Source of the DNA: Ceratodon purpureus | Taxonomy: Eukaryota; Streptophyta; Bryopsida; Pseudoditrichales; Ditrichaceae | DNA: 64,000 nt | Direction: 5' to 3' | Assembly: GCA_014871385.1 (NCBI GenBank) | Contig: CM026429.1 | Coordinates: 1,090,554-1,154,553 of the forward strand | Part shown: positions 17,927 to 58,472 of the stretch, piece after piece | How the letters are laid out: each line of letters opens with the position of its first letter | Numbering within the stretch: the stretch's first letter is position 1 | Notes under the pieces: generated by a model | What the model was told of the DNA's origin: nothing | Database searches by the model: none | What the model saw: only the letters and a program-made list of their open reading frames with translations | Position numbers and translations under genes: made by a program

Positions 17927-17964
17927 TACCCTTTCGAAATCTTTAGAGTGGCAAGAGAGAAAGG

Positions 17965-21965: not shown

Positions 21966-21996
21966 CTTAGGCGTGTAACCACGGAGAATCAGTCTA

Positions 21997-24400: not shown

Positions 24401-24402
24401 TA

Positions 24403-26656: not shown

Positions 26657-26880
26657 TACTGTAACTGAGTGCAATATCTTGGTAACACCGGTGTATTCCA
26701 ACCAAAATCCATGGTCACACTGGTGTATTCCAGCCAAATTCCATGGATACACCGGTGTAACCAAGCCAAATTCCGTGATAACACCGGTGTAACCAAGCCA
26801 AACTCTATGATAAACACCAAAGTAGGTCAATAGAGCCTCCTGGGTATACGCGTGATATAACCCGGAAGCACCTAAACCGA
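26657..26880. repeat. Satellite fragment right of the CACTA-like element
   Basis: About six monomers with ACACCGGTGTAACCAAGCC. Confidence 0.85.
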
Positions 26881-27487
26881 ATTATTGAGAACTAGATGAA
26901 CTAGATGAAATAAGACGAGGGGCATTATTAAAGAACGGAGGCTATTCAAAAACGGAGGAAAAGCTATTATGATAGTGAATTATAAAGCCAAATACATTCG
27001 AAGTAAATGATTGGGTTTTACTTTATGATAGCCGTTATATGAAGTTCCCATGAAAATGTCAATTCCGCTGGCTAGGTCCTTGTAAAGTAACGGAAGTATT
27101 TCCCAACGGATCAGTGCAATTGGCAGATGTTAGAGGAAATTTATTTGTTACCAGAATTAGTGGAAATCGGTTGGAAAAAGTACTACACTTGACGGATAAT
27201 ACCCGACGGACGGGTATAGAGTCGGAACGGGGGAGGGTTAACCCCTGAAGGAGAAATCGACCCTGACAGGGTCGATTTGGGTCTGGGCAGCCTCTGAATT
27301 ACTAAATTTAGATTTCATGAAGTTGTAACTTTGGCAGATCGTAGAGTTTCCCCATACCTTTCCGGAAAGTCATTTCATGCTTCAAAATTCCTCATACTTT
27401 AGGAGATATTCACAGTCAAAGTTTGAAAACACTATCTGAAAGCTGCCCAAAATTGCCCAAACTGCGGTATATGCTCATTTATTCTCA
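26881..27487. other. Gene-free stretch
   Basis: Low-similarity sequence with a short hairpin TCGACCCTGACAGGGTCGA (27268-27286). It may extend the left end of the following element. Confidence 0.35.
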
Positions 27488-27919: not shown

Positions 27920-28500
27920 CCAGCTTTGAACGTTATGATCTCACAAACGGTGAGGAATTTGAGTTCAAGCATTGGCATACATGATCTTGTACAAGTTATG
28001 TACTGGATCCTACGGTATATACTTCAAAATACTTCATAAAATGAAAAAATCTCACCTTGCATTGAAAGAGGGCAGTTTTGAGGGTAAAGCTTGCAAATAG
28101 TTTGATTCTCCTTTAGGGGCTAAAAAGAAACGGAAACAGTTCTAAAGTAAATTGGAAATTTAAAAAGGTTAAAGATACAAGGCAAAAAGGAAAAGGAAAA
28201 ACACGGACGCGAAGTGACGGCGCAGTAATGATGGAAAGGACAGAAAGGACAGTTAACCCATCGTGGGGGATTCAGGAATTGATGTTTTGAAAATGAAGGG
28301 ATTGAAGCTAGGTATGGCAATGGGCTGGGAGAGGTGGCAGCCTTTGCGAAGCTGAGTGTAGCAAATGTGATGCGAGCTTACACAAATTAGAGCGTTCAAT
28401 TTCTTCAGCAATTGCGTGTTGAGAGAAACGGTCAGTGAAGCGATTGTCGTGCGCGAAGGAGTTAGAGGTTTCGGTGGCGCGAGTGAGAAGTTGAGCGAAA

Positions 28501-29445
28501 ATGGCGAAACGGCAGGGTAAGAGAGCGGCGGCGACACCGCTTACGCGTAAGGCGAAGAAGCAGCGAGTTTATAGGGACGTGCCAGATCTTACCGAAGTCG
28601 CTTTTACGGCAATAGAGCCCATGAATGTCGAGATGCTTCGCAAGAGTCCGGCGAAGGATAATTTGAGGCTGGCGGAAGTCTACGGGTTTTTGAACTTTTC
28701 GACAAACCTGCCGGAGTTGGACATCGGGTTGGTGAGCAAGTTTTTGATGGGTTACAACATCAACGACGGGAGCAGTGTGGTGGACGGAAGGCGTATTTTG
28801 CTAACGGAGTCGCTGTTGAACAAGGCGCTGTATCTCCCGATCAGCGAGTTAGGAGTGGGTGACGCTAAGCCGCCTCCAGATTTCAATCCAGCGGAGTACT
28901 TCAAAACGGGGTTAGATGCCTTGGAAGAAAAACAGGGTTGGAAGACTGCTGAAGCCATCCGCCCTGGATTGGTAGAATGGATGCGTTTCGCCCAGAAACG
29001 GTTAGTTTTGGGAGTGCATGCCACATACTTGGCGCAAAAATATTTGTATGCAGTCACGCAGACCTTCAACGGAATGAAGTTCAACTGGGCGTTATTCGTG
29101 GTGGAACGGATTTACCACGAGTTGCAGAAAAAGAGGTTTAAGGGGAGGTTTGGTACCCTCTTGGGCGCGAGTTACATCTCCGTAGCGGTTAGGTATCAGC
29201 TGAACCAGCCGTTAACGGAATCAGACGAAGAAATGGCGGCGGAACGGGAGACACCGACACCAACGGAGAAGGAAGCGGCTCCGATAGAGCTGCAAGACCC
29301 GTCGGAAGGGGAACCGGAACCAGCAAGGAAGACGACGCAACAGTATGCAAGGTTGCGGAAGATGAAGCAGACGGTGGAGGCAAATGGCCCAGCAGTCGAG
29401 AGGAGGCACACGAATCGGCGACGGAATATCACCGGGACCGTTTGA
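28501..29445 (+). CDS. Plant transposon-type protein ORF 1 (retroelement gag-like region)
   Basis: A 314-codon ATG frame. The N-terminus is basic (AKRQGKRAAATPLTRKAKKQ). Residues about 90-230 (DGRRILLTESLLNKALYLPI, then WMRFAQKRLVLGVHATYLA) resemble the conserved region of proteins annotated in plants as putative transposon proteins upstream of gypsy-type polyproteins. The tail is Glu/Pro-rich. It overlaps the next ORF by 62 bp in another frame, so either a +1 shift or a mutation separates them. GC content is higher than in its AT-rich surroundings. Confidence 0.6.
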   Translation: MAKRQGKRAAATPLTRKAKKQRVYRDVPDLTEVAFTAIEPMNVEMLRKSPAKDNLRLAEVYGFLNFSTNLPELDIGLVSKFLMGYNINDGSSVVDGRRILLTESLLNKALYLPISELGVGDAKPPPDFNPAEYFKTGLDALEEKQGWKTAEAIRPGLVEWMRFAQKRLVLGVHATYLAQKYLYAVTQTFNGMKFNWALFVVERIYHELQKKRFKGRFGTLLGASYISVAVRYQLNQPLTESDEEMAAERETPTPTEKEAAPIELQDPSEGEPEPARKTTQQYARLRKMKQTVEANGPAVERRHTNRRRNITGTV

Positions 29446-37987: not shown

Positions 37988-39204
37988 CAAAAAAACAAAA
38001 TAAATACTTTGATATTTGAGATGTTTTGAATGATATAATTTTTTAGTTAGACCAAATCCAGCAAGTAAAAACCTTCAATATTATTGGATTTTTTTTTTCA
38101 ATTAGCATTTGGGAATTTTTTTGATTGGCTACAATCACATATTAAATGATGAACCCTTCAACGCCCACACATTCATTTTTTGGACATTGTAAACTTTGAA
38201 TTGTTGTTTCTCCTTCCTCCGACCATTTTTTTCGATCGCCCAAAAAAACACATGCTATATATCTTTGAGCATACTACCATATGCAATGATTACGACAATG
38301 CAACACAATAATCTATGTTATTGTACTTGGACCCGTGTCCTTTGGACACACTCACAAAATCACAAACGGTAGTAATTATCAATGTGAGTTAAGAGTAGTT
38401 ACATGTTCTATAATTCATAAAGTAGGTATGGTAAGAAATTCACATGTTTCCCTTGTCGTTTTTATCTCCTAACTTGTCCTTTCGGATCCTCCAAGCAGGT
38501 TGCACTCCGAGACTTGGTCAAATGACCACTTATTCCATGTTGTAAAATGTCATGTGCAGACATACACACGAGAAAACACCCTTCGGTCTTCCTTATTTAC
38601 AGTCAATGCAATTTTGGCTTGATCAACACAACTAGACATACTTCTACACCTGTAATTTTAGAAAAAAAATATGTAATCGAGTATGACCACATCCAACCGC
38701 TAAATAGGCTGGGCAACAGCCTGGTGAAGGAATTCCAAATTTTTGGATGAGTTTCATCCAAGCATTGACGAGAACAAGTCCATACGCTGGGACGCTTAGG
38801 GGCTAAAGTCGTTGGAGTTTTATGAAATGGATGCTCCATCATTCTTATAAGTTTTTTTTCATTTTTTTTTTTTTTTTTTTTTTTTTTTTCCTAAATTAAA
38901 AAATCCAAACAAGAGTGGTTAAAAGATGTAAATGTTGTTCCTTTCGGTAGGGGAACAAAGAAGCGGGTTTGATATCACAATGTGATATCATAGAGATCGA
39001 AGAAAATGAGGGTGGACAGTTCTGCGTCAAAACATGTCTCATCCTCTTAAAGGAGCCTCTTGTCGTTACCTCCATTGATGTTTCCTCACCTCCGTTCAGA
39101 AGCAGTCTTTCACTCGGAAATGAAGTATGGAAAGCAGTCGTCGTTGCGAAAACGAAGGAGAGCAGTACCCTAAACCGTTTCCACACCTCGGTATTCACGC
39201 ATTG
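37831..39204. other. AT-rich gene-free stretch with long T tracts
   Basis: Poly-T runs at about 37961-37987 and 38859-38889. A perfect short hairpin GATATCACAATGTGATATC lies at 38971-38989. A weak frame around 38969-39238 has no recognisable motif. Confidence 0.4.
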
Positions 39205-39258
39205 TTCTAATATGACATATATAATAAGTGTAACATAAGATGTTTTTATTATGCAGGG
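39205..39258. mobile_element. hAT MITE internal fragment at the left edge of the 18-kb element
   Basis: TATGACATATATAATAAGTG then AAGATGTTTTTATTATGCAGGG matches the interior of the hAT MITE family and stops at GCAGGG, exactly where the large element begins. Confidence 0.6.
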
Positions 39259-39310
39259 AGCGTTGCTAGGGCATGAGCGTAGAGCGTAGAGCGTAGAGCG
39301 TAGAGCGGAG
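39256..39310 (+). repeat. Left terminus with TAGAGCG heptamer array
   Basis: Five direct copies of (C/T)(G/A)TAGAGCG-type heptamers follow GGGCATGAGCG. The right terminus has GAGCGTAGAGCGGTGAGCG in inverse orientation. Confidence 0.6.
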
Positions 39311-39741
39311 AAATTCAGAGATTTGAGCGGTGAAAATTTATTTTTACTAAAAATATTTTTAAAAATAATAAAAAACATTATTAAAAAGGCATATTCTCTA
39401 GAATATTCGAATATTCTGGACTTATGACCGTGGAATTTAGTACCCATGACCGTGGAAAATGGGCCTGATATTTAGAATAAAATGGACTGTGATCAATTTT
39501 TACAGCAATTGAAAAACTTCATTGAGTGGAGTTAAAGCGACATATTTTTTTACTGAAAGGCAGAAATGTAGCACTATGAGAAGTGATTCACAGATTCGAC
39601 AATGCCAAGAGAAAATATATATAAATTTATATAATTATATATATGTATTCAGTAATTTGTGGGAGTACATAGAGTGACGTTTGTCATACTCGTATATGTG
39701 GAAGAACAAATGTATAAGACTATTAAGGACAGCTTATGACT

Positions 39742-42700
39742 CTAAATGGAAGCGTGGGCTAGGATCCCGCTCTCAAGAATCGTCTTCACCTCATTGAAAC
39801 TGAGGGTAGGCGCATGAATGAAGAGGTCATGGTCAGCCTCTAGCTTACAGACCTCTACGTACACATAGTAGAGATGCTTGCATGGACGGAATGGTTGCCC
39901 GCGCCTACCAAACTTAGCCATGGTCTCCTTGAACGCCGGGCAATTGCAGTGCGGTAGGGCACTGATAGTCAGATCATATATTGACTCCGTGGGGGCTGGT
40001 TTGGACTGCAAAGTGACGATGCATCCAAAACCAGGTTGGGGTATCATTGTTACCTTTAAGATAGTTGCCTTCATCACCTTAGCAGAATCGATGTTTTGCA
40101 TGTGTTTGGAGCTCGCACACGTGATGTTACGGCGCACGGTCTTCGACTTCCTTGTTTTAGGGTGAGCGTCAGCACTATCTGGTACTGGAACCTGCGACAG
40201 ATCCGGTGGCAGGCCTAAAACGTTGAACGTGCGCCCCACAGGAACATTTCGCTTTTGGGGAAGTTGGAATCCCGCATTCTCCAACGCCTCAATCTCAGAC
40301 CGTGTGAGATTTGTACCTATCTTCACAGGCCAAACCGAGGGGATGAGAGGTCGGTCCTCGTAATCCGAGAATGGCTCTATCCATTTGCGTCGATGGCCCT
40401 TGACACACCTCTCAATGTCGTTTGCACAGAAGAAGAACTGCTCCACCACGGGATGGTTACCTCTATAAGATGGGGTATAAATTCCCGTGTATGTGGGAGC
40501 CGGGGTGCTCTTCCCGTTCTGGACAATTCGAGAGGTGCACTTCTTCCGAGTGACAGCCATCTGCGCCCAACAAGACTTCGCCGAATTCTTGTTAAGCCGG
40601 GCAATGTGCCACAGCTTCTCGTTCACAGGAGTCTCCTCAACAGCTGTCACGCGTTGAAAATCTATGCCACTTGGGGCAAGGGGTAGTGCTGGGCCATCCT
40701 CCACCTCCACCTCCTCACGGATGGTGCTCAAATTTTGAGCACGAGAACGTGTCACTCTACGTCCCATACGCGGTCGTGAAAAATTCACAGTGTCCGGTCT
40801 ATGGGTCTCTTCTTCAGCGCCAAGGGGGACATCCGCCTTCCGCTTCCTGGATCCAAAGATCTCAGCCCCTTCAAAGTGTGCGTCACGTGTACAGAAGTCT
40901 TGGGCTCCAGGCATCTTCAAGATGGCATCGTTCAAGGGCGTTGGATCCCCCGTTCGTTGAGCTCTACGTTGGACAGTCCGAAGTCGAAGTTCTTCTCTTG
41001 ACGGTCCAGAGCCTCCAGCTCCACCTTTTAGGAACTGATAATACCCCACCACTTGAAGAAATGCTCGAACATAATCGTCGACGGCCGCAACGTAAAGATC
41101 GGTACCCTTTTTGCCAGAGGCTTGCATCCATTTGTTGTGGATGGTCTCAGCAAGGTTGCAAGACAGCATCTCAGCCATTTCCTCTGGAGAATACTTCTTT
41201 TCCTGCACGAAATCGAAACACTTAGTACTGTCCCGGGTATGTTCGTCCAATTAATGGGACCTCATGTGGGTTAGGGTCAAACTGCGGAGATAAGTGAGAA
41301 AATTAAAGAAATATTTGGAAAGGGTAATTGCAACCTTACCAGTTCCATGAATCCACCCCACTGCCTGTAGCGGAAATGCCAAAACGCGAGCCATAGGTTC
41401 AAGTGGTAGAGACCTGCTTCAGTGGCCGCGCCCGAAGATGTCCACCACGCCTTGATTGCCTGGTAACGTGTTTCAGCTTCTGCCAAAGAGCTTGCATCTC
41501 TGTACTGCTTACAAAGTTTCTTGTGTTGATCTTGCAATTCGTGGACGATGTATCCTTTCGTGTGTTTCTCCATTGATTGCACCCAATGAAAATAACAGGT
41601 TCGCTCTCGGCCTTCCATGGGTATCTTTGGATCACCAGATCCGTATACAATACGTACAGCATTCCAGTTGGCTTGAGCGTTGTCCGCCATGAAACCTTTG
41701 AAGTGCGGCTTGTGAATTCCATGTCTAGCCATGACATGGTTGAGATTCCTCCAGAATATTGTTTGAGCATCTGCGGCCTCCGACATGAAATCACAGCAAG
41801 CAATGGTAAGTACGCGTTGGTAATTAGTGTCGTATACGTGGCAAGCCATAGTGGTCCAATTGGCCACTCTCTTGACGTGGTCAAACATCATCCACGCGTC
41901 CTCGAGGTCTCCACTAGGTTGCATTCGACGGACTAGGTCGACACCACTGCCAGGACCAACCTCTGACATCTTGAAGATGAAGACTTTGTCCGCGTCGTCA
42001 CCTTGCCCTGGAAACATGTTGCGCTGCACGTACGCCCAGTTGCTGAGGCCCCTGAGTTTGGTGATGCCATCAAGAATGCCGTAGCCACGTAGTTCCTTGA
42101 AAGTGTTGACACGGTTCTTTAAACTAGGCGAGTTGAGCTCCTTGCAGCATTCGAAGATAGGTTCTAGCTCTTCCAGAGTAAGCAAGGTTGGAGGGTCGCT
42201 TTCTTCGCGAATCAAGAGGTTACCTATGACATCCTTGCTAGTTTCTAATAGTATCTTAGAAAGGGTAGCTTCTGGTAAGCGCTCCACATGGTGAGCTAGC
42301 AAGTCATCTATCATCTTCCGAGTGCCCCTGTGGGCTCCTACTTTGACAGGATGTCTATGGTTGCCTACATGGACACAAGCACGCTCTTGGGTATCGTCCC
42401 CAAAGACATAAAAGATTTTTGCATCACAGGAGGCCACACAGACAGGAGGTTCTTTGCACATCTTACAGACAATCGTTGATGTGGAAGGTGGAGCATCTCC
42501 AACAGGGAAAACATCTTTGCATGAACCTTCAAACTCGACCTCGTTCACTCCTGCCACGCGCTGAGGCCTCTGTAGAAATCCACAGTTTTGATTGTGACAT
42601 TGGAGATGACCTACACAATTCGACGACCGGAATGACAGCCCGAGCGTATTACTGATGTTAGTAGTCACTGTCTTTGTCCATATATGGCCATCATAACGTT

Positions 42701-43454
42701 TGTCCATACCTTCCATGGATTTAGCATTCTTTAGGAGGGCAGACGGAGTAGTGGGAGGTAGAATGAAGATAACATCTCCATTGAAGGAAGGGGGCAGGAA
42801 ATCTACGTCCTTAGTGCGAATTGAATCATAGTTCAGTTTTTTCAGAACTGACTTGCTTCCAGGCATACTACCTAGTTTACGGAGGGAAGGAAAGATGTTT
42901 TTTTGTTTTGTAGACTGTAAATGCAGAACTGTAGGAGTAGTCTTCCGTGAATCTTGAGAAGAAGAGGGAGATGGTCGAATAACTGTAGGGCGGTCAGGTA
43001 GAAGAGAAGGGCTCCTCTCATCGTCTGAAGTATCTGACAAGTCAATGGTGAGACGTTGACCCGGTTCGATCTTGACACGAGATAGTAAAGGCGGTTCAGT
43101 GCACAGCGTCGAAGAGCTACGAGGGGTGAGAAGGACTGTAGAAGCATTCATGATGGACTCAGACATGCCATAAACGCGATACCTCCCAGGTTTTAATTTC
43201 CAAACTCGAACATTGTTGTCTAATGTTTCGGGCTGGACATAGATGGAGTAGAGGACACTTCGACTGTCTGGATCAAGAACATCTGCCTCTAACCACAAGC
43301 TATCAACATCAAAACCGTAACGAATGGATAGCCACTGGGGAGTAATACTAGCGGTTCCATCAGGGCCAGGAGGGATACATGTAGGGATGACAGATCCAGG
43401 AGACACAAATTCTATGACGTCGACGCGAAAAGCTTGAGGAGCGGAGGAATCCAT
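39742..43454 (-). CDS. MULE-type transposase with GCM/WRKY-like zinc domain and SWIM finger (two exons, intact)
   Basis: Exon 1 43454-41340 (705 codons), phase-0 intron 41339-41203 (GTAAGG...GTGCAG), exon 2 41202-39742; 1,191 aa, no internal stop. The M at 43454 is chosen over 43496 because the upstream residues look untranslated. About residues 256-376 form a Cys/His zinc domain of the WRKY-GCM1 type (NCVGHLQCHNQNCGF ... ERACVHVGNHRHPVK), the usual DNA-binding module of MULE transposases. About 526-706 is the RNase-H-fold MULE domain (FKGFMADNAQANW with the candidate catalytic D591, then the CYFHW motif). The C-terminus has a SWIM zinc finger C1124-X-C1126 ... C1146-X-H1148 (HCNCPAF, PCKHLYYVY). 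Known: MULE transposases bind terminal inverted repeats and make 8-11 bp duplications. Start codon lies 576 bp from the divergent gene at 44030, so a shared bidirectional promoter is likely. Confidence 0.85.
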
Positions 43455-44029
43455 TGACACAAATATTGAGAATGATAGGTGAGAATGAATTTGCAAAAGG
43501 GAGACGTAATAGAAGTGCAGGCATATATATATGGAAGATGTTGATTAAGTCATAAGGTTTGTGAGAAACATGTACAGCGTGCGTAGTCAGCAATTGTCTG
43601 TTTAATTATGGGAAATAGCCATACAAGGGGAATCTGATTGGATGATATTCTAGCGGCTAGATCATGGAGTGGTCTTAGAGAAAATTATCAAAATATACTG
43701 TATCGTATTAAATGAAATATGGAATGAAATGAAAAAGTTACGGCGGCCGCCGTTGTCAGGGAGGATGCCTAAATGTATTGAGTAATTCAAATTAGATTAG
43801 AAAAGCATGTCAGGAACGCGTTGTTATTATGTCAGAGATCTGAATCTCTGAACGCGCTTTTTAGTAAACGTTGGATAAAAAATGCAGGAGTGAGCAGGGG
43901 ATGAGATTGAGATATAAGGCGTGGAAGGAGGAGGGTTAGGTCTCTCATTTTCTAACTGTGATTCAGTGTAGTGTCTACTTTCTACAGCGTGTTGCGACAT
44001 TTAAAAATTAGAATTTTTACAGGCTCGTT

Positions 44030-44833
44030 ATGGAGGCTGTGAGTAGCCAAGCAGAGAGAGGGAAAGAGGGAGGGCGGGGGAAGAAGAAAAGGAGAGGGGG
44101 CATGAAATTCAGCGGTTCTAAGGCTATCCGACGAAACGCGATGCGAAAGAGGGATGCGTCGGGTTCTTTTGATGAGGATCGAATAGGAGATGAAGTAGAT
44201 ACGAACAATGTTGAATCTTTGCCAGAACGGTTTAAACGTGTTAAGATGCGACCGTTGAATTTGGATGCTGTTGTTGAGGGCGTTGAGGGTGAAGAAGATG
44301 AAGAGAGAAGTAACCAAAATGATGTGAACGAAGATGTGGAAGGTGTTAGGCGTTCAATATCGAGGAGCGAATCCTTGGGATCTGAGCAGGATAGTGAAGA
44401 TGATGGGATGGAGAAAATGGTAAGTTCCAAAACCTGAACACATCTAACAGTAGTTTTAACCATAAGTATTTGTCTTACTTGTCTCGATGTGTTTGTACAG
44501 TTCGATGAAATTGAGACATTAGTTGGTGATATTTTTGGGCAGCAAGAAACACAAAAAGGAACTGCAAGTGAGGGCGCAAGCTTGGACGATGAAGGCAAGC
44601 AACAAGAAAGGGACGACGGAGAGCATCAAGGGGGGCAAGAAGAATCTGGAGAGGTTGGTCCACCTGTACTCATTCAAAATCATGTGGAAGAGATAGATTG
44701 GAGTGTTCGTCCCGAGTTCATGATTTATCAACACCCGAACGGTTACATTCAACACTGGCTGATAGAGACCCCTGCTATTCCATGGGGAGACCCTTGCAGC
44801 GACCATCTGCTTGAAAGTCCACATCCAAATTGA
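44030..44833 (+). CDS. Element accessory gene A, 240-aa acidic protein, not recognised
   Basis: Exon 1 44030-44419 ends ATG|GTAAGT; exon 2 44501-44833 begins after TTTGTACAG, phase 0. The N-terminus is basic (RGKKKRRGGMKFSGSKAIRR), probably nuclear-localising or nucleic-acid-binding. The middle is acidic and Ser-rich. The C-terminus has an aromatic block (WSVRPEFMIYQHPNGYIQHW) that looks like a folded motif. Transcribed away from the transposase. It may be a transposition helper, but nothing in the sequence proves that. Confidence 0.65.
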
Positions 44834-47426
44834 TTCGTTCAAAGTTGTGTAACAGATGAGTAGTAACGAGCATGATGAGTTCAGTGAGATTAGTGAATGT
44901 TGATAATTATTTTACGACTCATTGTTTAGCATTGAACCCAAAAAAAAACAATTTTAAATGTCTTGGTCACTCTGTTGAACCGAAACAAGACCAAACTCAA
45001 TTGTCTAATTTAAATCCTCGTCATTCTCTCTTTTACCCTCCCATTTTCCTCCATTGTTTTGGAATAATTTATCATAACCCAATCAATTATTTTTCAGCGT
45101 GATGTTCTCATATGTTAAAGTTGAGTCTAGGCATTACGTTTAACTCAACTGTAATGTAGGAGACCTCAAATACAGTATCCACTATGCATAATTTAGCATA
45201 CTTTGGGGACCTCAAATTAAGAGGTCATTTTTGTTAGATCATGCTAGATCAGAAAGGGACTTAAAGATTATTCTTAACTCCATATTCTAAATAATTTGAT
45301 ATGAAAATTTATTATTTTTGGTTGTAATCTTTTGCTTAAAACATTTATATGAATTTTTTTTAAAGTTTTTTGAAATTTAATTCAAATTTTTTGAAATTAT
45401 CTTAAAATAAAAATTCTTAGTATCTTTATAAAACACATGGTGTCTATAATGATAGCAGTATATTCTTAACGATTTGAAATTTAGTCTAAAATGATATGAG
45501 TATTATTTGAATTTTTTTTGGAAATTATTTTAAATTTTTTTAGTAATTATTTCAACATTATGGGTATCTTTGTAAAACACAAGGTGATATTAACCCTTAA
45601 ACGCCCACAATGTCGAAAAACGAAATCTTGGATGTACTCTAGAAACTTTGAAGAGCCATAGCTTCTTCATCCGTACAAAAGGTATGAGATAAATATACGT
45701 ACAAAAGCTATGAGATAAGCTGTGTGATAAAAATTGCACACCCATACAATGAAGTATGTAATAATGGCATGCGTTTTAGTGAAGGCAGCTTTCATTTTTG
45801 GAATTTAGAACTTGGGGCATGTTTTACCATTGCAATCCAATTAAGTGAAATCAAATATAGTTTTTCATGATTTTTTTTTACATAATCATGATCTTAAGAT
45901 GAAATCTAAAAACTTTCTAATTGGAAGATTTTTGATTCAAATACTTTTAGTATGAGATTTGCAATGATGTTTCTACAATGAAAAAATTTAAAAAATGGAT
46001 GATTTTTGAGGAGCTAGATCTCCTTCATCCAACGTTGGATTTCGACTTTATTTTTTGGCATGGATTCCAAATCATGTATAATTATTATAGAGGGTCTAGT
46101 TTTGGACTATTCTTCCTTTGTAAATATTTTGGCAGAATTCACCATTGCAAAGCTAATATTTGAGCAATGAAGTTTTTTTGATGAAATTTTTTGGTTCAAG
46201 GTTATTGTTTAGATATAGGTTTACAACTTTCTAGTTGGAGTTTTTTTCATTGCAATAGGTCTAAAGTGAAAATGATGAAATTTTGTTGGCTGTTTTGAGT
46301 CCTAAATCTAGATAGCTTGCCTGCATTTTCATCACTGACATTGTTTTCAATAATGTGTTTCTAGGCTTGGGACATCTTCATATAACACAAGGTGTTAACA
46401 GAAACTGAATACTTATAACGATCATATGTGATCTTTTTATGTTAACATATTGTGTTTCAAATTTATTCTAAACTATTATGATTGTTATTTGAAATTTTTT
46501 TGGAAGATATTTTAAGTTTCAGGAAAGTAACTTATAATCTAAATTTAGGATATATTTATTAAACACACGGTGATATTAAGTATCACGCTATATTATTACA
46601 AATTCAGGGGTTTTTTAATTTTTTTTTTTGTAATCTTTTGTTTGAAATTTATTCTAAATTTTTTTGAATGCTAATTTTTTAAATTTTTTGAATGCTAATT
46701 TTATAATTTTTTTGAAAGGTAATTTTTCAAATTGTTTGAATGCTAATTTTTCAAATTTTTTGAATGCTAATTTTCTAAATTTTTTTAAATGATAATTTTT
46801 AAAATTTTTTTTTCTGAGTTGTCTTTGACCATCTTTGAACAAATTTTTTTAAATGATAATTTTTTCGACCCCTTGACCGTCCATTGTCCACCCTTGACCG
46901 TCCATCGTCCACCCTTGACCATCCATCAGGAACCCTTGACCGTCCATCGTCCACCCTTGACCGTCCTTAAGGGACCCAATACCGAGAGAGCAGATCCTCG
47001 TAGCAATGGTGAGAGACAGCGCGACTTGCCGATGCAGAGAGATAGCAGATCCTCGTAGCCGGTGGTGAGAGACAGCGCGACTTGCCGAAGGTGCTGTTTT
47101 GGAATTTCTCCAGTTTTCCTTACTGGATTGCATGATCTGTCCCTAGTAGTGGATTGCACGATCTGTCCGAGTAGTGTGTGGCGCGTCTGAGTGAGGGTTT
47201 TGAGCCACCAAAATCTATTCTTGAAGCAACTATTCTCGTGTGGTTGCAGACGTTGGAACCCTAGCGTATAATTTTAGCCTAGATTGAGAGTTGTGTCAAC
47301 AGCTAATCTTGGAGCAATTAGATTCCCGTGCCAATCTTGGAAGTATGGGTGTTCTAGTAGGGTGCTCGGTGAGAGAGTCACTTGGACCATTGCTTCAATC
47401 AGTTGGTGAGAGAGCATCTGAAAGAG
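44834..47426. other. Intergenic part of the element, AT-rich with local tandem repeats
   Basis: Recurrent AAACACA(A/T)GGTG motifs at about 45432, 45576, 46388 and 46560. A ~29-bp array with TTTTGAATGCTAATTTT (46650-46860). A CCCTTGACCGTCCATCGTCC minisatellite (46866-46975). A ~50-bp tandem pair with AGCAGATCCTCGTAGC (46990-47090). No gene recognised. Confidence 0.6.
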
Positions 47427-50400
47427 ATGGCAAATTTCGTGGGTGGGGAGGTGACACAGCTCTTGGAGGCAAGCGGCGACGTAGATATCGATCTAGAGAA
47501 CGTGAGTTGCGAATCTTCTACCATTTTCTTGATTTCAATTTGGCGCAAGCGACAACTGGAGGCTGTTCGAATGCAAGAAGCCAGGGATGCGTTGGAGCGT
47601 GAAGTGAAAGCGTATCATCACTTCCGCATACCACACGAGGTAACCGTTCATCACGAATCCTGGACCAGCATAAACTTTGCTCTGATCTTGCTCATCTCTT
47701 CAAATAGCTATTGTTCTCATTGTGATAGATGCAAGGTTTGTGGTTCACACAAGTATGCTCGAGTGTTCTTGCGGGTGATGGTTGCCATTTTCATTCAATT
47801 TTCTGCATTTTTAGGCCTCTTGTTCGAATGCTGTTTATGTCACCTTGTTCGCTTGCTGATTTTTCAATGGGCTTCTAGGCACCCTCGTCAACGAGGATGT
47901 AACTTCGGTGTCTGTTGTATTCGAAACCCGATTGGATTTGAGTTCTGGACTCCTCATCTTGCAAGTGCTGGACTCCTCATCTTGCAAGTGCTGGACTCCT
48001 CATTTTGAGCACTGAACTCCTCATTTTGCAAGCGCTGGACTCCTCATCTTGAGAACTGAACTGAGGCCTTAGAATCTGCTGACCTTGACCCTGGGGTTCG
48101 GGTAAGCTGCCAAGTGTGGCGTGGGTACAACCTGCTGTTCCGTAAGCTGAGGCCTTAGAATCAGTAAGCTGAGGCCTTAGAATCTGCTGATCTTATAAGC
48201 TTGACCCTGGGGTTCGGGTAAGCTGCCAAGTGTGGCGTGGGGTTTGGCCTGCAGTTCCGAAATTTTGATGCCTTCATCTCGGACCCTCGTCAACGAGCCT
48301 CTGCTCGAGATAGGCTTCAAAATTCGGAACCTTGTGATCTGGATTCATCGGTAGTTGTGTTCGACAGACTTTTCTGCTGCTGGTTTGGTCATCAATGCTG
48401 TTGGTTGATTTTTGTCACGCAACATTTGCAAAAATTGGGTGCCCAGATGAGCACTCTCGTCAATGAGGGTGTGATTCAAGGATTACACATTCTGACTTGT
48501 GAGTGATTCCAAGTGCTGGGTTCAGCTGATCGTTCAGCTGATTTTTCAATGGGCTTCTGGGCACCCTCGTCAACGAGGATGTAACTTCGGTGTCTGCTGT
48601 ATTCGAAACCCGATTGGATTTGAGTTCTGGACTCCTCATCTTGCAAGTGCTGGACTCCTCATTTTGAGCACTGAACTCCTCATTTTGCAAGCGCTGGACT
48701 CCTCATCTTGAGAACTGAACTGAGGCTTAAGAATCTGCTGACCTTGACCCTAAGGTTCGGGTAAGCTGCCAAGTGTGGCGTGGGTACAACCTGCTGTTCC
48801 GTAAGCTGAGGCCTTAGAATCAGTAAGCTGAGGCCTTAGAATCTGCTGATCTTATAAGCTTGACCCTGGGGTTCGGGTAAGCTGCCAAGTGTGGCGTGGG
48901 GTTTGGCCTGCAGTTCCGAAATTTTGATGCCTTCATCTCAGCCCCTCGTCAACGAGCCTCTGCTCGAGATAGGCTTCCAAATTCGAAACCTGGTGATCTG
49001 GATTGATCTGAAGTTGTGTCCTGCTTTAACTTCGATGATTGCTGTATTCGAAATCCTATTAGATCTTTAGTACTTGACTCCTCAGCTCGCAATTGCTGGA
49101 TTCCTCATCTTGAGTGCTGGACTCCTTATCTGAGTACTGGACTCAACAAGGATGCTCTGCTGATGGTGGTGGTTAACCTTTTGGTGGTGATTAACATTTT
49201 ATTTGATCAATTCTAAAATTTTTGATGTCTTCAAAGGAAGACTCGTCAACGAGGATGCTCTACTGATGCTCAAAAATCTGCTAATGTTGCTTACTGGTCA
49301 TGTTATTGGAGTCAAATGTTGTTAACTGGTCATGTAATTGGTCATGAGACTTGTTAGGTGGTGTATCACAGTTCATAATTTTTTTATGAGTATTTTGTTA
49401 TTCATTTCAACATTGAAGCTACCAGATTTAAGGCTTGACTGTACTCTATTACCTCTTAGTTTGGATCTTGTGCTGTGAGCACTTTGATTAGAGACTTATT
49501 GGCTGATGGTTCACATTTGTTATCCAATTTATGAAATTCAAGATTGCCTGTTGGGATGTCTCGTCAACGAGCCTGCTCTTACACATGCATTGATTTTAGA
49601 AATTTTGCTCTTGATTAATTATCATGTTATTAGGAATTTTGTTTCACTTTGAGATTAGATCGCTAATATAATTGTAATGCTTGAAGGCATTAGACTTGTT
49701 TATGAAAAGGTTGGGAGTGATGAAAATTAGAGAGCAAATTCGAATGCCAATGAAAATTCTTCATGTGAGTTTTGGTTGTTTTTTCAGTGTTAAGAGAATT
49801 ACATACCGTTCAAATGTATAGGCCACCTCTGAATTTATAACTCTAACATCTACATTTCTTTTCATACTAATTTTTCAACTTGGAATGTGAACTGAGCCTT
49901 GGGTTTTTTGTGAATAATTGGCTCCTGATCCAGAGTCAATTAGATTCTAGGCTTTCTTGTTTTGATGATGATATATCGATTTTGATGAATCACAGTCCAT
50001 TGTAAATTCATGAATATTTTGTTCACCCTTTCGTCAACGAGGCTGCTAGATTCAAGGCATGAATTTACTCTAATACCTCTAAATTTGGATCTTGTGCTGT
50101 GAGCATTTTGATCTTGATCAATTATCTTTTTGTTTGGAATTTTGTTTAACTTGAAATTAGATTGCTAATAAAATTGTGACGTTTGAAGGCATTAGACTTG
50201 TTAATAAATAGTTTGGGAGTGTTGAAAATTAGAGAGAATATTCGAATGCCATGTTACCATATTCGTTGACGAATGAAAAATCTTCATGTAATTTTGATTG
50301 TCGTTTGTATCTTTAGAGAATTGCATGCCTTTCAAATGTTTTGGCCACTCCTGAAATTATAACTTTCCAATATCAAGTGCCCCTTTGATACTATTTTTTC

Positions 50401-51561
50401 AAACTGAAATCTGATCTGAGCCTTTGGTTTTCTGAGAATAATTGGCCACTGATTCATATATCAATGCAACGTTCTGAAATTTTTGAAGGCTTGTCATGAA
50501 CTTTCGTCAACGAGGTGTCTATGATGCATGCCTTGATTTTGTTGATCACGCTCTATTAATCCTTCTCTAAACACTTCATGTTGTTTAATTTTTGGAAAAT
50601 GTCAAGTGAGATCTAAGCTTCAATTATGTTTTTTGCCTTCGTAATATTTTTGTTTTCTATTCATTTGCTGATTTTTTGAGAACGCTACTTAGATATCCAA
50701 CCCATGACACTTTTAATACTTTGTGTGAGGTTTCATTGCTTGTCATATGCTGATATATTAGCAAAGGAATTACAATAAGGATTGGACTTCATGTCTACCC
50801 ATTGCCCCTTCAGTACTAGGCATCATTTGAATTGTCTTTTTGATTTGACAGTTGATCTTATCATAGAATATTTGTCAACCATTATTATGCGTTTTATATT
50901 TGCTTGACCTATAATTGTTTGACGATTTTCTTGCCGGAAATTAGTGTAATAATTGGGAGTTAATTAGGAGTTTGGAGTACGTTCTTGGTTTCTCTCAAAA
51001 TTCTATTTCAATATCTATAATACTAATTATCTGTGTTTCTCATATAGCTTGATCGATACACTATTCCCGTTTCAATTCTTACTTGTCTACTATGTTAATC
51101 TTAGTTTGTCAACTATTTAAATTTCTTTTTCAATGAAATTTATGCTTAGATTAAGAGTTCTTCATATATCTCCAATTAACATACTGTAGTTTGAGTTCTA
51201 ACTTGAATCCTATGTTTATTTGGTGCAGGGAGCGATCGATTTTGAGCTTCAAGATCCCTACACGGAGTCAGACAGTGATAGTGATCTATCTAGCATGAGA
51301 GATCGAGTACTTGATGTAGTGACCACACGATCCTTAGTCCGTGCGCTTCCATCGGTTCATGTAGACACAAAATCTGAGTCCCCTGTCCGTTCTACTGCGA
51401 CCCCGCCGTCGATCGTTGATCGGGATGCCCGCTCAATTTACATGCAGGCTTGGAGAGCTCGCTCCAAACAGTTTCGCTTAGAGAATCGGGCACAAGCGAA
51501 GCTTGCCCCACGCCGTTCTCCTAGGCTTGCTGCTAAGGCTAGATATGCAGATACATCATGA
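47427..51561 (+). CDS. Element accessory gene B (~165 aa), long intron
   Basis: ATG at 47427. Exon segments 47427-47501 and 47550-47639 can be separated by a 48-bp GT-AG intron that is also open in frame, so it may be retained. Then GAG|GTAACC starts a 3.6-kb intron, and exon 51229-51561 follows GGTGCAG in phase 0, ending RYADTS. The protein is helical and charged (RMQEARDALEREVKAYHHF), then Asp/Ser-rich, then basic (RAQAKLAPRRSPRLAAKARY). Family not recognised; it looks like a small nuclear or DNA-associated protein. It is followed 135 bp later by gene C in the same direction. Confidence 0.55.
47840..50540. repeat. Diverged tandem repeats in the gene B intron, each with a TCGTCAACGAG motif
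   Basis: 47860-48330 recurs at 48530-49000 nearly unchanged. Older copies pair 49420-49960 with 50040-50470 (for example TTTGGATCTTGTGCTGTGAGCA and GAAGGCATTAGACTTGTT). The motif CTCGTCAACGAG(G/C) or its close variant sits at about 47884, 48285, 48448, 48567, 48945, 49232, 49560, 50030 and 50503. Confidence 0.75.
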
Positions 51562-51695
51562 ACTTGTCGATTACATTTTGACAAGATTATCTTTCCATCA
51601 AATTGGATAATCTATATGTTATGATCTTCTTATATTTATCATACTTAATGTTGTTTTGTTTCCTAAGCATAATTTCATTCGCACATCTTAAGCAG

Positions 51696-54600
51696 ATGAG
51701 ACTATCGGAAGCACCTGCACCACTTCCCAAGGTTCCCAACGACATGGCTCAAGATGTTGGGGAAACTGCGACACTTCAGCCACGACCGCCTCAGAGTGCA
51801 CCAACCCCACACGCAACACCACAATCTCCTGAAACGGGAGACGGAGATGATGACGACCTTGAAGAGATCATTCCGGACACACAACCTTCGCGCGAGAATG
51901 CTGATCTTGAAGAGGATGTAACCATGGTGGCCGCGGCTCCAGTTGAAAGATTGAGAGGGGAACCTCATTCCAATCCGGATATTGTGGAGGTGGCGCCCGT
52001 TGTCATGCCAACTCATTTGGCTGAGATGGACCCGATGTGGAGCGCCGACGAGTTACGAGCTCAGCAGAAGGGGAATTCTATCAACACCATATCCAGGTTG
52101 AGAATTAAACCTGTCGAAAAATCTCGTCTTCGCATTCCCCTTTGTCGCCTCTCATGTTACCCCAAGGTTCGTCCCATTATCGAAACCGACGTTTGTAAAA
52201 TGGCTAACGAGTTTGTCAAGGGCTACCGAGAGGGCGACCGTGTACTCTATGTTTCCCCATACAGCAAGAACGGGAAGCAGCGGCTGGTCAAGGACGATGA
52301 TGCGGTTTGGAATAACCCTCATTGGAAAGCGGCGAATGATCGCTTCGAAGAGTCTTTGGTAGCCGATCCGGACCTTTGCCAATTTAGTGGCAAGTACTTC
52401 TACGTTTACGAAGGAAATCATCGTGTAACTGCGTGGATGCGTTACATAGAGGAGATGCGCCGAGAAGACCCGGATTGGTATTTTTTTGTGGATTGCATTG
52501 TCCTCGATGGACGTGCAGAATACAAAGTACTGATCGACGCGATGAATGACATCAACTGGTGAGTATGAAATCTCAATCATTACATGGGTCATATTGTATA
52601 TTGTACACTTAATAGTTATTTCATAACTTTTTTCACGAACAGGTCCACAGAGCATGATCATGTTGAAGATAGCCTGCCATCGAGATTGCAACGCATGCGC
52701 AAGTTCGGCAAGATGCCACTTGATGAATGGAAACCCCTTATCTCTCCTGAGGACTGGAAGTACTGTGACTCTGCGAAAGATAAGGCCAGACCAACTTGGT
52801 ACTTCGTGACTAAGGACGTTTTCATCAAGTTCCTCTATGCGGTGCGTCAGACTTGATACCTACTTTATGAATTCTTTTTCTTTTGAAGTTTTTACCTTGT
52901 CTAACACGTGTCCTTTATTATTTTAGAGGCAATGTGCTAAGGTCGCCGACGAAGCCCAAGCCCAATACTATGAGGACACTCCCCTAAACAAAAGGACAGC
53001 GCACGGAGTTTGGACGGCCATGAACGAGGCTCTCACTACAGAGATCAAACGAATCCGAGGAAAGGACTTTGACAAAATGCTTGCCATTGCTAATCCAGAG
53101 TTAGGAAAAGCATTCGAGCAAGAGGTATGGTCTTCTATTAAATGACTCAGTGTTTCCTCTCGCTCTATTCTATACAGCTCTAAATAATTTTTCTCTCTTT
53201 CTTGTATTTCGATGTAGATCAACCTTCATCATAGCAGGCATAAGGAACCCGAGATGACAATGGAGCGCCTCCAGAAGCTCGCTACAACGAACGTTTCAAA
53301 GGAAGTGAAAACCATGTGGCTTCGTTGGTGGAACAACACTCCAGCATTCCGACGTAGTGTTTGCTTTCCGGATCCGTTCGAGATCAAAGACAGGGTCCTA
53401 GAGGCATGGCTTGCTCGTGCAGCACTGTGGTCACAGGTACTTATTCTCTACTCAATCATCTTCATTACACATTTATTCTACAGCAATTTATTCTTTACGT
53501 TACTAACTTCCATCGTTGACTACAGTTAGCGACGTCCCTTAAGGAGGAGGTGGAGAAGTTCTTCAAGCAGGAAAAGCCCCACATCCCGAACCTTGAGGCG
53601 GTTTTGATGCCCGAAGATTACGTCGAAAAATGGCGTCTTCTTTTATGGGATAAGGCTTTCGATGCTCATCTAGGCCCCAAGGCCAGCCCTAAGTTCATTA
53701 AAGGCTCCCACATCGACAAGCTTGGCGGCGGTGCTCTAACCAAAAAAAGATTGATGTTCAGGTTGGACCAAACTTTTCTTATTTCAATTTATCAATACTA
53801 TCAAATTCTTCCAAGTGTTTCTAAATGTTTTTACTCCATGCAGATATCTGAAACAAGAGCTTGTTGCTAAGGGTGGTCTCTCTACAACGGCCATTCCTTC
53901 TGAATACCAAGACACTGCGCTGAAGAAGAAACCATTGTTGATCTTCTCCAAAGATCAGAGAGAGCGGTTTAAGATGCCTTTATTGTTGACTGGTGGTTGG
54001 TTTCTAGAGTCTCAGACCCACCACGTTCATAAGGAGGAGAAGCATCTTGTGCAGATACCGGAAACGATCGATCACGCACCTGTGGCACTCCAGGTTGATG
54101 ATGATGACAATGACTTCTACATTCTTCCAGGTGCTCCACCGCCGCCCCCCCTTGCTGCACCGAAAGGTAGAGCTAACGCAGGTGGTAGTCGCAAACGTCG
54201 CAAGAAAGAGCCTACTCCTGAGCCAGAGGAGGTGGAACAACTCGAAGAGAACGCCGAAGACGATGCGGAGGAGGAGGGTGAGCATGGAGATGTTCCCATC
54301 CCCGAAGAGTTTGCAGGTAATGAATATTCTTTTATAGCGCAATTTTTCTTTTTTTTTCGTACTTCGTAATTCGTCTTACATGTGCTCACGTGTGTACAAT
54401 GTAGTTCGTGGAGATGTTGATATGACACAAGCTTCCCAGGGGACGGTTGTCGACACCGGTGGGCGTGGTGCAAGAAATCCACCAGCTTCAGAGAGGCCTG
54501 CAGTTCTGCAACGGAGGCATGCTCGGGGGTTGACTCAGGGTTCTGAGGGTGGCGTTTCCAATGTGCCATCTCCACCTCTGTCGTCATCGGCCCCTCGTGA

Positions 54601-56187
54601 TTCCCCTCACTCTCACGGACCGACGCAGTCCAAAGGACCCATGCGTCCCATACTCATTCCAAAAAATGTGGGTAGTACTTCCTCTTCTCCTACCACCGTG
54701 ACGCTCCCCATGTTTCTTGAGAAAGGAGACACGGCCGCCTTGGTTCAACAATCTACAAAGGGTGCAGGCTGGGTAGACGCAATTCAGGCTATGGTTCAAC
54801 ACATAAAAAAGGTAGTCCCCTCTCTGACTATGGATTGCTTGGTTACTCAAGTTACTCTAGAACAAATTTTTTTTAATAAACTTTGTGTCTAATCCACAGA
54901 TTGGAAAGGGTAAGGACTACCCTTGCGAGAAGATGGACTACAAGCCCAAACACCCAGGGATTGACCTCATCTTTGCAGACGTTCCCGAGAACTTGCCCGT
55001 GCTTGGTGTCTCGCCGGGCGCGATTCCTGTCTGGAACAAACGTGCTCCGTATTACTTCGAGTCAGTGTTTGTCTTCGCCTCATACCATTTGACTGACCTT
55101 GGTACTATACTTATTATGCACCCCAAGGACGTCAAAATTGACCGCATTCTGCACGATCGTGCCAGTACTTACAATTTCAGGATCGTGCGAGAGTGGTGGG
55201 CCTATAACCCCCTTCCTATGGTTAAACCTGGCGCTACCGCGAGAGAGGTATAATTCGAATATTGCACTTGATTTAATCTTTCTCATTTCAACAGTAGGTT
55301 TTCTTAATTCGAAGTGCTTATTGCAGACCCATAACTTTACCATCAAGGTCTATGCTCGTAAGGACTTCGTGAAGATGTTCAATATACGACAGGTGGCGCA
55401 AGCATACGCAGGAGTCGCCATCATACCTGACGAAGATGACATGGTCAGTAACTTTGCTGACGAGGGGTCCATCACCTATCGCACTGACGGGAAGCCGTGG
55501 CGCGGATCACGTGAGAAGGATCCATCGTTTTTGCAATGCTTCGTGGATTGCCTCACGGACGATGGGGGAATCGTATTTGACTTCAGCGCTAGTACAGGTA
55601 AAACTTCATGTTCCCATTTGAGTGCAGTATAAATATTGATTTTTTCAATACTCATGTGGATTTTCGTATGTGCAGGTGCTTCTATCATCGCATGTGCACG
55701 CTCCAATCGTCACCTCATTGCTTTTGAGGCTGATGAGGAGATTTTTGATGGACTCCTGGCTACCTTCAAGCACCCAAAACCGTTGGAAGAACAAAGTGGG
55801 GAATCAGCCTCTGGTGACGATTACGACTCTGATGAACCGTATCTAAAGAAGCCACGCACTTATATTGGTGTGTAGTCAATTCATTTCAATGTCTTGTTGT
55901 GAATTCAAAGTCTATACTAGATTCATAGCACTAACTGGTTTTGAATTTTTAGATAAGCAGGCATCTCAGGACACCTGACCAGAAACGCTCCTCTTTACAA
56001 CAGCCCCCCTTCGACACTTGTTCTACCATCCTACGCGGAGCACGTTGCTAGGGAGTTTGTTGCAGCTCCATCTCCTCCTATAAGGAACTCTTCACGCCGA
56101 CGCTTTAGACCTGGTGTGCTTAGGTACATTGACTTAGAGGCGGATCAGTGTGACCATCATTTTGATGGTGCTTCACCTACATCGTAG
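51696..56187 (+). CDS. ParB/sulfiredoxin-like domain fused to beta-class DNA-methyltransferase-like domain, 11 exons, 1,210 aa
   Basis: Exons: 51696-52558, 52643-52841, 52927-53124, 53218-53436, 53526-53761, 53844-54316, 54405-54811, 54900-55247, 55327-55597, 55676-55867, 55961-56187; all GT-AG, phases consistent, one open frame. Residues 1-125 are acidic and disordered. About 135-300 match the ParB/Srx fold: RLRIPLCRLSCYP strand, helix, then YVYEGNHRVTAWMRYIEE with the GXHRXXA box at 240-246. About 300-560 are helical. About 600-860 are low-complexity with a Pro/Ala/Lys hinge. About 876-1100 follow the beta-class methyltransferase order: IDLIFADVPENLP (892-895 replacing DPPY), GTILIMHPKDV, a REWWAYNPLP strand, SREKDPSFLQCFVDCL, then motif I-like GGIVFDFSASTG and HLIAFEAD (1061-1091). 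Known: ParB-methylase fusions occur in phages and bacterial mobile DNA. Inference: DNA-binding or modifying cargo; catalysis is doubtful with DVPE. The ATG directly follows an acceptor-like TTAAGCAG, so a 5' UTR intron is likely. Confidence 0.7.
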
Positions 56188-57196
56188 TGTGTTTTGATTT
56201 TTCTACTTCGGATTTGATTCTACGTAGGGCCAACTCTAATGAGTAGCCTAACCCCATTAGTCATTATTGAGATTTTCTTTACGTTTATATATATACGTGT
56301 TTATTTTCCATTAATCCTTTATCGTATTCAACTATTTCAATGTCAAATTCTTTTTTCAAACTATATGTTGGGTTATTTTCTCGCACCTCAATACTCCAAA
56401 TGACATTTATAAAATGGAAACGTATACAAGTTTCTATAGGTCATCGCTATTCTATACTTGTCAATGTTTGTGGGGGCCTTTATTGACACCCTGTTAGCTC
56501 AGGATAGCTGCCTGATTCGCAACGCGATGCTCAAACGAGGTCGATGAGGATCGAACCCGGACCTCCGCAGTACGAACGTAATGTCTTTCCGTCCACCTCA
56601 TATGGTGGCACAATGTGACAGTTTCTTATATTCTAAGTTGGATTATATACCCTTAGTCATTTAAATAATTGTAGTGAGGATCACCGTATACAAATGATGA
56701 CGTCAGCCTGAACTGAGCCCTAAACCATTAAACACAAGAAGAGTTTTCTGGATTAATTCAAACACAATCTCATATGAGCCATGAACAGTCATCCGTATTT
56801 AAATCGCTCTGTATTTTATGTGATGACGTCAGCCCTAATGTAAACACATTCACATATAATCTTCAAGACATTGCAAATTGAATTCTCATGCGTGGTGGGA
56901 CCCACAAGTAAAGAAGCCCCTAAACCAAGGAATCGGGGTTCTCATATCCTAAAAATAGGCATGTAAAAACAGAACAGTTGTAAATTTAGTGGTCATAGGG
57001 TCTCCAACTCTCTAAAGAAAATATTACACAGAATGTAAAAAAAAAAATTGCCATTAGGAGCTTATTCCACGGAAATGGGGTATTCTTTTGGCTAAAAATA
57101 AACATTTTTGGACCAAAATCAGTGGTCATAGGATCCTTATGTTTCCAAAAAAATTCAATAAGCGAGCGGAAAATTTCACAAAAAAGTACTAAAAAG
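56188..57196. other. 3' spacer of the element with a tRNA-like stretch
   Basis: At about 56547-56566 the minus strand reads GAGGTCCGGGTTCGATCCTC, a pol III B-box core, with a TTAGCTCAGGATAGC A-box-like sequence nearby on the plus strand (56495-56510). No canonical cloverleaf forms, so a tRNA-derived SINE remnant is likelier than a tRNA gene. The rest is AT-rich. Confidence 0.4.
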
Positions 57197-57239
57197 TACG
57201 CTCACCGCTCTACGCTCATGCTGTAACTTTTCCCCTACT

Positions 57240-58472
57240 GTGGAGACGGAACCAGCAGCAAGGACGGAGGAACCCCAGCCGGCGCGGACGGAGGAGGCGC
57301 CTAAGCCTGAAGAATCAACTCAACCGGGATCCAGGGCGGACCTGATTGAGTTAGGTGAGCAGTCCTCGCCTCAACCTCCGTCCTCCCCAATTCCGGCCTC
57401 TCAACCCGACCTCAGGCCAGCGCTATGGGAGCAACATCCGGACGCCATGATGAATGCGTGCATGGCGATCGGATATGCGAGGGCGGAGTACTTCGAGATG
57501 AAGACAGCGATCGATAGGTGCTGCCAACACTTCGGGGTCGGAAAGTTGGGTGATCTGCCCAAGGTATGGGAGACCAGAGTGAGCGCGGAGGATGTCCAGA
57601 AGATGGAGACGGACATGCTTGCCCACATGACGTCCTTGAAATCTTCACACGATCAGTACGTGAAGATGACCGAGGATGCCAAGGAGGAGTACGCGAGGAA
57701 CGCCGAGGCCGCGATGAGGGAGACGGAAGCTGCCCACAAGCTGGAGATCGAGACGCTCCAAAAACGCATCGTGGATCTCCAGTTCAGCAACACCCGGCTT
57801 AGGAAGACCACCAAACTCCAAGGAGGTGAGCTAGGACGGAACCGTATCCTCTTGGAGCAGGCTCATAAGGATGCCGTACGGATGGCGGAGATCTGTGAGG
57901 TGCCCGGAGAAGCGCGCCTGGATGCGAATCTCTACCGCCAAGGCATCACCCAGGTCGAAGCCTTTCAAGCGGAGGCCTTCAAGAAGTTCTACAAGATTTC
58001 GATGGGCTTCGCGAAGAAGGTGGAGAGGTCGGACAAGGAGGTGATCGAGATTCTCAATTCCGTCCGAGGACGGATTGACCAGCTGGAGACGGCTCCGACC
58101 CCACTAGCGGCGACACCTTGCAAGGCGTCCTCTCAACCCTCTGCGGCGCAACCTCAGGCCGAGCAAGCAGGGCCATCCACCAACCCTGTTAGTCCTAAGG
58201 ACAAAGGTAAGGATCCGGCCCCTGAACTTCCGGCCGACCCTGCCTCCCAAACTCCCACTGCCCCTGTCAAAAAGGGTGTAGTACGGAAATTGGGGGAGCA
58301 AGATTGGGAGGATTCGCCCAACAAGGAGGATTACGACCCACTAGCGGACCCAGAGAATTGGGAGGAGGAAGATGGAGTTAAGTATTTTGTGGGGAAGATT
58401 TCAGGGCCGACGCCAGACTACAAGCGCCTGAGGAAGATGCCGCAGCCACAGAACCGCATCAATCACCCTTAG
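57240..58472 (+). CDS. Coiled-coil transposon-type ORF, 5' end missing at the element border
   Basis: The frame is open from the terminus of the 18-kb element and has no ATG near its start (first codon GTG), so its N-terminal part is missing. After Pro/Glu-rich repeats (TEEPQPARTEEAPKPEE) come residues about 75-300, mostly helical with a coiled coil (LEIETLQKRIVDLQFSNTRL), then a Pro/Ala-rich linker and a C-terminus ending KRLRKMPQPQNRINHP. It resembles the coiled-coil portion of plant transposon-type proteins such as that at 29384-30250 in general type, without clear sequence identity. GC-rich compared with its surroundings. Confidence 0.5.
   Translation: METEPAARTEEPQPARTEEAPKPEESTQPGSRADLIELGEQSSPQPPSSPIPASQPDLRPALWEQHPDAMMNACMAIGYARAEYFEMKTAIDRCCQHFGVGKLGDLPKVWETRVSAEDVQKMETDMLAHMTSLKSSHDQYVKMTEDAKEEYARNAEAAMRETEAAHKLEIETLQKRIVDLQFSNTRLRKTTKLQGGELGRNRILLEQAHKDAVRMAEICEVPGEARLDANLYRQGITQVEAFQAEAFKKFYKISMGFAKKVERSDKEVIEILNSVRGRIDQLETAPTPLAATPCKASSQPSAAQPQAEQAGPSTNPVSPKDKGKDPAPELPADPASQTPTAPVKKGVVRKLGEQDWEDSPNKEDYDPLADPENWEEEDGVKYFVGKISGPTPDYKRLRKMPQPQNRINHP

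Follow-up and report, generated by a model that had tools for sequence, protein, structure and literature searches.

A ParB-methylase-fold protein in a probable two-gene transposon of the moss Ceratodon purpureus, with palindrome arrays that it may bind

What is a protein that joins a ParB/sulfiredoxin (Srx)-like domain to a DNA-methylase-like domain doing in a moss? We examined such a gene in a 64,000-nucleotide stretch of the Ceratodon purpureus genome (the window; G000:C9:1090554-1154553) and searched for relatives in the 362.5 Mb assembly. On balance we lean towards the view that the gene belongs to a two-gene moss transposon, in which a non-methylating ParB-methylase-fold protein would mark its own element via arrays of palindromes, either as anti-silencing or as regulation. 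The gene is half of a DNA transposon of ~18 kb, in which it diverges from a probable transposase gene.

The ParB-methylase gene and its domains

A splice search over 51696-56187 (+ strand) reproduced the gene of the original prediction: 11 exons, with ten GT-AG introns of 78-93 bp, join in phase to give 1,210 amino acids plus a stop codon. Exon 1 (51696-52558) holds the ParB-like domain (about 52122-52558). Exons 2 to 5 follow at 52643-52841, 52927-53124, 53218-53436, and 53526-53761; exon 6 (53844-54316) ends in a low-complexity linker, and exon 7 (54405-54811) is mainly linker. The methylase-like part includes exon 8 (54900-55247; motif IV region, with DVPE at residues 892-895) and exon 9 (55327-55597; motif I region, with IVFDFSASTG at residues 1063-1072), both also assigned by profile comparison. 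Exon 10 (55676-55867) has a motif II-like HLIAFEAD, and exon 11 with the stop is at 55961-56187. Using tblastn, we recovered the predicted exon series in other genomic copies. Three Ceratodon protein records, named hypothetical proteins, have no ParB exon; they begin at a point that corresponds to about residue 386 of the window protein. P0002, a protein record annotated as Ceratodon purpureus, is 99.6% identical to copy c10_9234 over 276 amino acids.

A structure-based fold search confirmed that residues ~143-287 have the ParB/Srx fold, with its strand-helix topology. Because this part lies wholly inside exon 1, it can be read without any splice. It contains the GxxR P motif, as defined in the portion of PMC12704722 available to us: GNHR, at residues 240-243, is at least 90% conserved among 50 sequences. 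The PHROG library gave a ParB match on exon 1 (E = 0.0035), and the PADLOC library gave no match on this exon. Neither the ParB alignment (against viral_contigs and genome_contigs) nor the methylase alignment (against viral_contigs) found any relative at the sensitivity used, and given these searches we set aside the idea that the gene was recently captured from a virus or a bacterium.

The C-terminal assignment also stood. In a profile comparison with controls, residues ~885-1100 are a beta-class N6/N4-methylase domain in which motif IV precedes motif I. PF01555 matches the window protein at E = 0.0019 and 18.6 bits, which is under the family cut-off of 26.7, and no other Pfam family matches the protein. 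Methylase PHROGs (E = 2.5e-5) and PADLOC type II methylases (E = 4e-5) match P0001, and NCBIfam yields CcrM (E = 0.087) plus one unrelated weak match on P0001 and nothing else. With a poor model of the methylase half as the query, Foldseek ranked CcrM first and M1.HpyAVI next, at E = 0.019 and worse. These E-values are weak, so the assignment rests on the profile comparison. In distant copies at G000:C13:3469373-3471241, C1:350694-352811, and four similar places, open frames of 667-726 amino acids lie over the methylase part; direct reading of two such distant copies gave longest frames of just 547 and 250 amino acids.

Both domains have low ratios of nonsynonymous to synonymous substitution (dN/dS) in pairs with a synonymous divergence (dS) of 0.2-1.5. 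The constraint on the methylase exons, and their clear homology to beta-class methylases, might suggest an active N4/N6 methylase with which the element marks its own DNA. This has been proposed for algal relatives, whose transposon protein is predicted to make N4-methylcytosine (4mC) or N6-methyladenine (6mA) (PMC12477816, available in part). However, the catalytic (D/N/S)PP(Y/F/W) motif of beta-class amino-methylases is missing: in every member read, the distant copy L042 among them, this position has D-x-P-[EDS] and never DPPY. Also, the six sequences of the profile comparison in which the motif I loop was read have S-x-[SNG]-T-G there. We therefore think that an active methylase is quite unlikely. 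Since the members read all have another sequence in place of the catalytic motif, the protein probably does not methylate, which fits the earlier suggestion that it may bind DNA rather than methylate it.

The mobile unit and its probable transposase

We chose ten further copies from the ParB matches and fetched each with ~10 kb on either side. Homology among the copies stops sharply at GGACGTTACTCGGGTGTGAGCG... and ...CGCTCACACC..GTTTTTCCC. In five of the six copies read at both ends, these boundaries are flanked by perfect 10-bp target site duplications (TSDs): GGCGATTGAA, GCTGGAGAGT, CAGAGGTAGC, TTCTAAAGTC, and TCATCCTATC. (For c1_9127, we did not find a right end.) A 10-bp duplication is within the 8-11 bp range of Mutator-like (MULE) transposons (PMC6446971). 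By homology to the ends of these copies, the transposon in the window spans 39256-57234 (~17,979 bp), with a left terminal inverted repeat (TIR) at 39256-39310 (GGGAGCGTTGCTAGGGCATGAGCGTAGAGCG...) and a right TIR at 57197-57234 (...CGCTCTACGCTCATGCTGTAACTTTTCCC), both given on the + strand. The two ends of the window copy share a 25-bp match, whose alignment score of 21 is no better than those of shuffled sequences (maximum 25.5). The extent of 51696-56187 that was originally proposed is correct for the gene but too narrow for the transposon.

The other gene of the unit is divergent, unbroken, and encodes a probable transposase of 1,191 amino acids. It occupies about 39742-43454 on the - strand (exons 43454-41340 and 41202-39743), and was overlooked when the original prediction described most of the window's genes as dead. 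By pattern, it has a SWIM-like CxCx19CxH motif; it has no informative match in Pfam at E ≤ 10, including to the MULE transposase domain.

Both genes lie within one TSD-bounded unit, and the pairing recurs. Of the ten fetched copies, eight have an upstream transposase on the opposite strand (six nearly whole, with c6_4013 gapped, and two cut at the end of the stretch). The others, c3_57 and c13_7464, have no transposase match in the stretches read (20 kb for c13_7464). Searching the genome with the transposase, we scored the best 63 of 2,702 candidates. Among the scored matches, at least 19 ParB-transposase pairs lie within 12 kb, all of them head-to-head, and at least 22 lie within 25 kb, of which 21 are head-to-head. 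Random placement gave a mean of 0.49 pairs within 12 kb and a maximum of 4 (with 18 Mb assumed for contigs whose length was not to hand).

The copy number is high: a genome search with exon 1, in which the best 136 of 1,884 candidates were scored, found stops inside just 5 of the 136. These matches, along with the TSDs and TIRs, rule out a host gene.

A few other features were noted nearby. A 436-amino-acid open frame at 57162-58472 begins within the element's right end and extends outside it, with weak matches to coiled-coil families only. An open frame at 28495-29445 weakly resembles PF20167, a putative plant transposon protein (E = 0.099). Rfam has no matches in 39000-58000.

Palindrome arrays and their likely binder

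Upstream of the ParB-methylase gene, at about 47884-50514, is an array of TCGTCAACGA near-palindromes, with nine exact sites, all of them inside 47885-50513, and one with a single mismatch. Their layout is TCGT-CA-ACGA, and in six of them the arms CTCG/CGAG flank TCAA. The 11-mer TCGTCAACGAG occurs 8 times, as compared to 0.02 expected in shuffles. Two of the nine exact sites stem from a 93% identical internal duplication, leaving seven. The array sits in the long intron of a possible small gene of 135 amino acids (+ strand; exons 47427-47501 and 51230-51562), for which c3_57, alone among the ten other copies, has a homolog (51% identity). This frame could represent a third gene, or else belong to the 5' portion of the ParB gene.

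At the corresponding place, other copies have longer palindromes of two types: type A is GCAGYCTRCG-N4-CGYAGRCTGC and type B is CCTACTGTCG-N4-CGACAGTAGG. Both have a 10-4-10 geometry with a variable centre. Allowing up to 3 mismatches, we found 80 type A matches in the segments upstream of the gene across ten loci, 5 more within the gene and 3' parts, and none in 50,000 bp on the transposase side (ten copies plus the window). For type B, five loci have 63 upstream matches between them; a further 10 and 15 outside the upstream segments are part of the array of a second gene copy and of arrays that continue upstream. Genome-wide, there are 64 exact type A sites (with a TTAA centre) and 2,033 exact type B sites, while the reversed controls gave 0 and 0. 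Overall, arrays adjoin the gene in 16 of the 21 ParB loci that we read (the window, the ten copies, eight upstream stretches, L042, and L043; these were chosen by us and are not a random sample).

The arm type follows the ParB clade in the loci read. In a tree of ParB sequences, the type A loci form one group (94/98), as do the type B loci (85/96), although near-copies favour such clustering. C6, a 110.5 Mb contig that from its size we take to be the sex chromosome, carries 8 of the 10 type A loci and at least 42 of the 136 ParB matches that were scored.

Because the arrays adjoin its gene and the arms follow its clade, the ParB-methylase protein is, from sequence, the likeliest binder of the palindromes. 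Alternatively, the palindromes could be subterminal-type binding sites for the transposase, with the ParB-methylase protein in some other, accessory role. Transposons such as En/Spm do have iterated sites that are bound by element proteins, and the transposase sequence also differs between the lineages (63-68% identity between the window and the type A loci, and 54-55% with a larger group). But it is the ParB gene that the arrays adjoin, and the transposase side is free of type A sites. In addition, the 20 kb of c13_7464 has no transposase match, and c7_4654 has two ParB genes, each with its own array and with no transposase match between them. Finally, among six copies, 13 of the 15 pairs have a transposase dS of 0.06-0.18 while their ParB dS lies at 0.67-1.7 in 11 of these pairs and is saturated in the other 2. 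These observations make binding by the transposase unlikely. Since near-identical transposase halves lie beside diverged halves with ParB and the array, we infer that element halves have been exchanged between copies.

It is very unlikely that the palindromes lack a dedicated binder and are selectively neutral tandem repeats prone to form hairpins. Tandem repeats do spread by themselves, type B sites lie in tandem units of ~201-242 bp, some type A sites in c1_9127 sit in a 138-bp run, and there are site clusters with no ParB neighbour among the matches listed. On the other hand, type A and window sites are mostly irregular in spacing. Furthermore, the array regions of different elements are mostly unalignable and the centres differ, yet the arms are kept (3 or fewer of 20 positions off).

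We propose that the ParB-methylase-fold protein, as a dimer, would bind the clade-specific palindromes in the non-coding 5' region of its own element. A dimer is suggested because the palindrome has a free centre. Occupancy of the array, perhaps with spreading from it, would mark the protein's own element. By analogy with VANC of the Arabidopsis VANDAL transposons, this marking would most likely block host silencing or set the element's expression. Spreading would rely on the clamp behaviour of ParB, for which the GxxR motif is retained; nucleotide specificity is not readable from sequence despite this motif (PMC12704722, in the part available). In a more specific version, a ParB/parS-like self-recognition system in a plant nucleus, the ParB domain would act as a nucleotide-gated clamp and the methylase part, repurposed, would be catalytically dead; the clamp would load at the arrays of its clade and spread over its own element to prevent silencing, with protein and site diverging together. 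We regard this version as speculative and rather doubtful.

Several observations weigh against the idea that the ParB-methylase protein marks its own element. Covariation alone cannot tell which protein is the binder, because the transposase differs between the clades too. No helix-turn-helix was identified after the ParB domain, where the middle region is modelled poorly and Pfam has no match besides PF01555, and the structure model of the methylase part is poor (mean predicted local distance difference test score of 34.8). The window copy, which is the sixth copy read at both ends, has no perfect TSD; its flanking 10-mers match at 6 of 10 positions. The closest pairs (dS ≤ 0.11) have dN/dS of 0.18-0.76, values to be expected where few changes have built up. 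Several copies are decaying, with in-frame stops in 1/9 for exon 8 and 2/9 for exon 9 (and 0/12 for ParB and 0/9 for exon 10), and 5/9 transposases have in-frame stops. Among the matches listed, 44 of the 63 transposase matches have no ParB within 12 kb.

In the loci read and the matches listed, the arrays and the gene are not always together, either. No such array is in the stretch read for five of the 21 loci (c3_57, L036, L039, L041, and L042). At c3_57, ParB is 83% identical to the window, but exon 1 alone was found; at L042, 1.3 kb upstream was read, and a different word is repeated in an intron instead. Among the matches listed, 9 of the 18 listed type A clusters have a ParB match no more than 5 kb away and the other 9 lack one; of those lacking one, the cluster at C6:23.48 Mb lies ~6 kb from a P0001 match. 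Similarly, among the matches listed there is no ParB neighbour for the two type B arrays that head their listing or for the C6 array clusters at 55.16 and 78.34 Mb.

The intronic repeat in the distant ParB copy (L042:2950-4720) comprises 18 copies of ATCCGACAGA, mostly at ~74-bp spacing, and has CGACAG in common with the type B arm. Elsewhere in the window, a ~32-bp repeat occurs over 100 times in 8300-26900; many of its copies include a palindrome resembling TACACCGGTGTA, and the repeat may be another element's site array.

Related systems and implications

Sola elements have 4-bp TSDs. The class of ParB-methylase transposons is already known from algae: in the part of PMC12477816 that was available, a ParB-methylase accessory protein is described in a 21.5 kb DNA transposon from Ectocarpus (Sola1-1_Ec32), and green and red algal cases are cited. 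The original prediction knew of no described plant transposon with this pairing; our literature searches found none in land plants, but there are these brown, green, and red algal cases. Compared by description only, the algal and moss elements both have a ParB-like and an N4/N6-methylase domain in one protein (1,104 amino acids in the alga and 1,210 in the moss), encoded on the strand opposite the transposase (in the moss, the probable transposase) in an element of ~20 kb. The moss element differs in its land-plant host, 10-bp TSD, and SWIM-like motif. It has also lost DPPY, which is not stated for the algal protein in that part of the report, and its palindrome arrays follow the ParB clade. 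As far as our literature searches go, the new features are the moss host, the loss of the catalytic motif, the 10-bp duplications that bound the mobile unit, and palindrome arrays that match the ParB clade.

The ParB-N6_N4_Mtase pair is frequent in phages (PMC12704722). Those fusions share the domain pair and the GxxR P motif with the moss protein but are prokaryotic. The available main text of that paper gives sulfiredoxin as the commonest eukaryotic form and does not contain "plant," "moss," or "transpos*". Bacterial ParB/parS is similar in its fold and in having palindromic sites that adjoin the gene. Canonical ParB (of ParABS) combines a helix-turn-helix with a C-terminal dimerisation domain and works with a ParA partner through a ParA-binding motif. 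In contrast, the moss system is in a nuclear transposon, no helix-turn-helix was identified in its protein, and its type A and B sites are 24 bp with a free 4-bp centre.

The functional analogy is with VANC, whose targets are short motifs, repeated in tandem in the non-coding DNA of VANDALs (PMC5735166), and which causes methylation loss (PMC10398659; both available in part). Both systems have an element-encoded protein and arrayed non-coding short motifs that vary between related elements. The VANC21 motif, YAGTATTAY, is not palindromic (nor does "palindrom" appear in the available part of PMC5735166), unlike the moss sites. Anti-silencing has been shown for VANC, while for the moss protein we infer it by analogy.

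Each lineage of the moss element offers a protein and a matching palindrome, which makes self-recognition by ParB-methylase proteins directly testable and supplies candidate target sites, which are lacking in the available part of the algal report (PMC12477816). If our reading is true, then unrelated proteins have given rise to VANC-like self-recognition in plant transposons, and on one occasion the source was a phage-type module that lacks the usual methylase motif.
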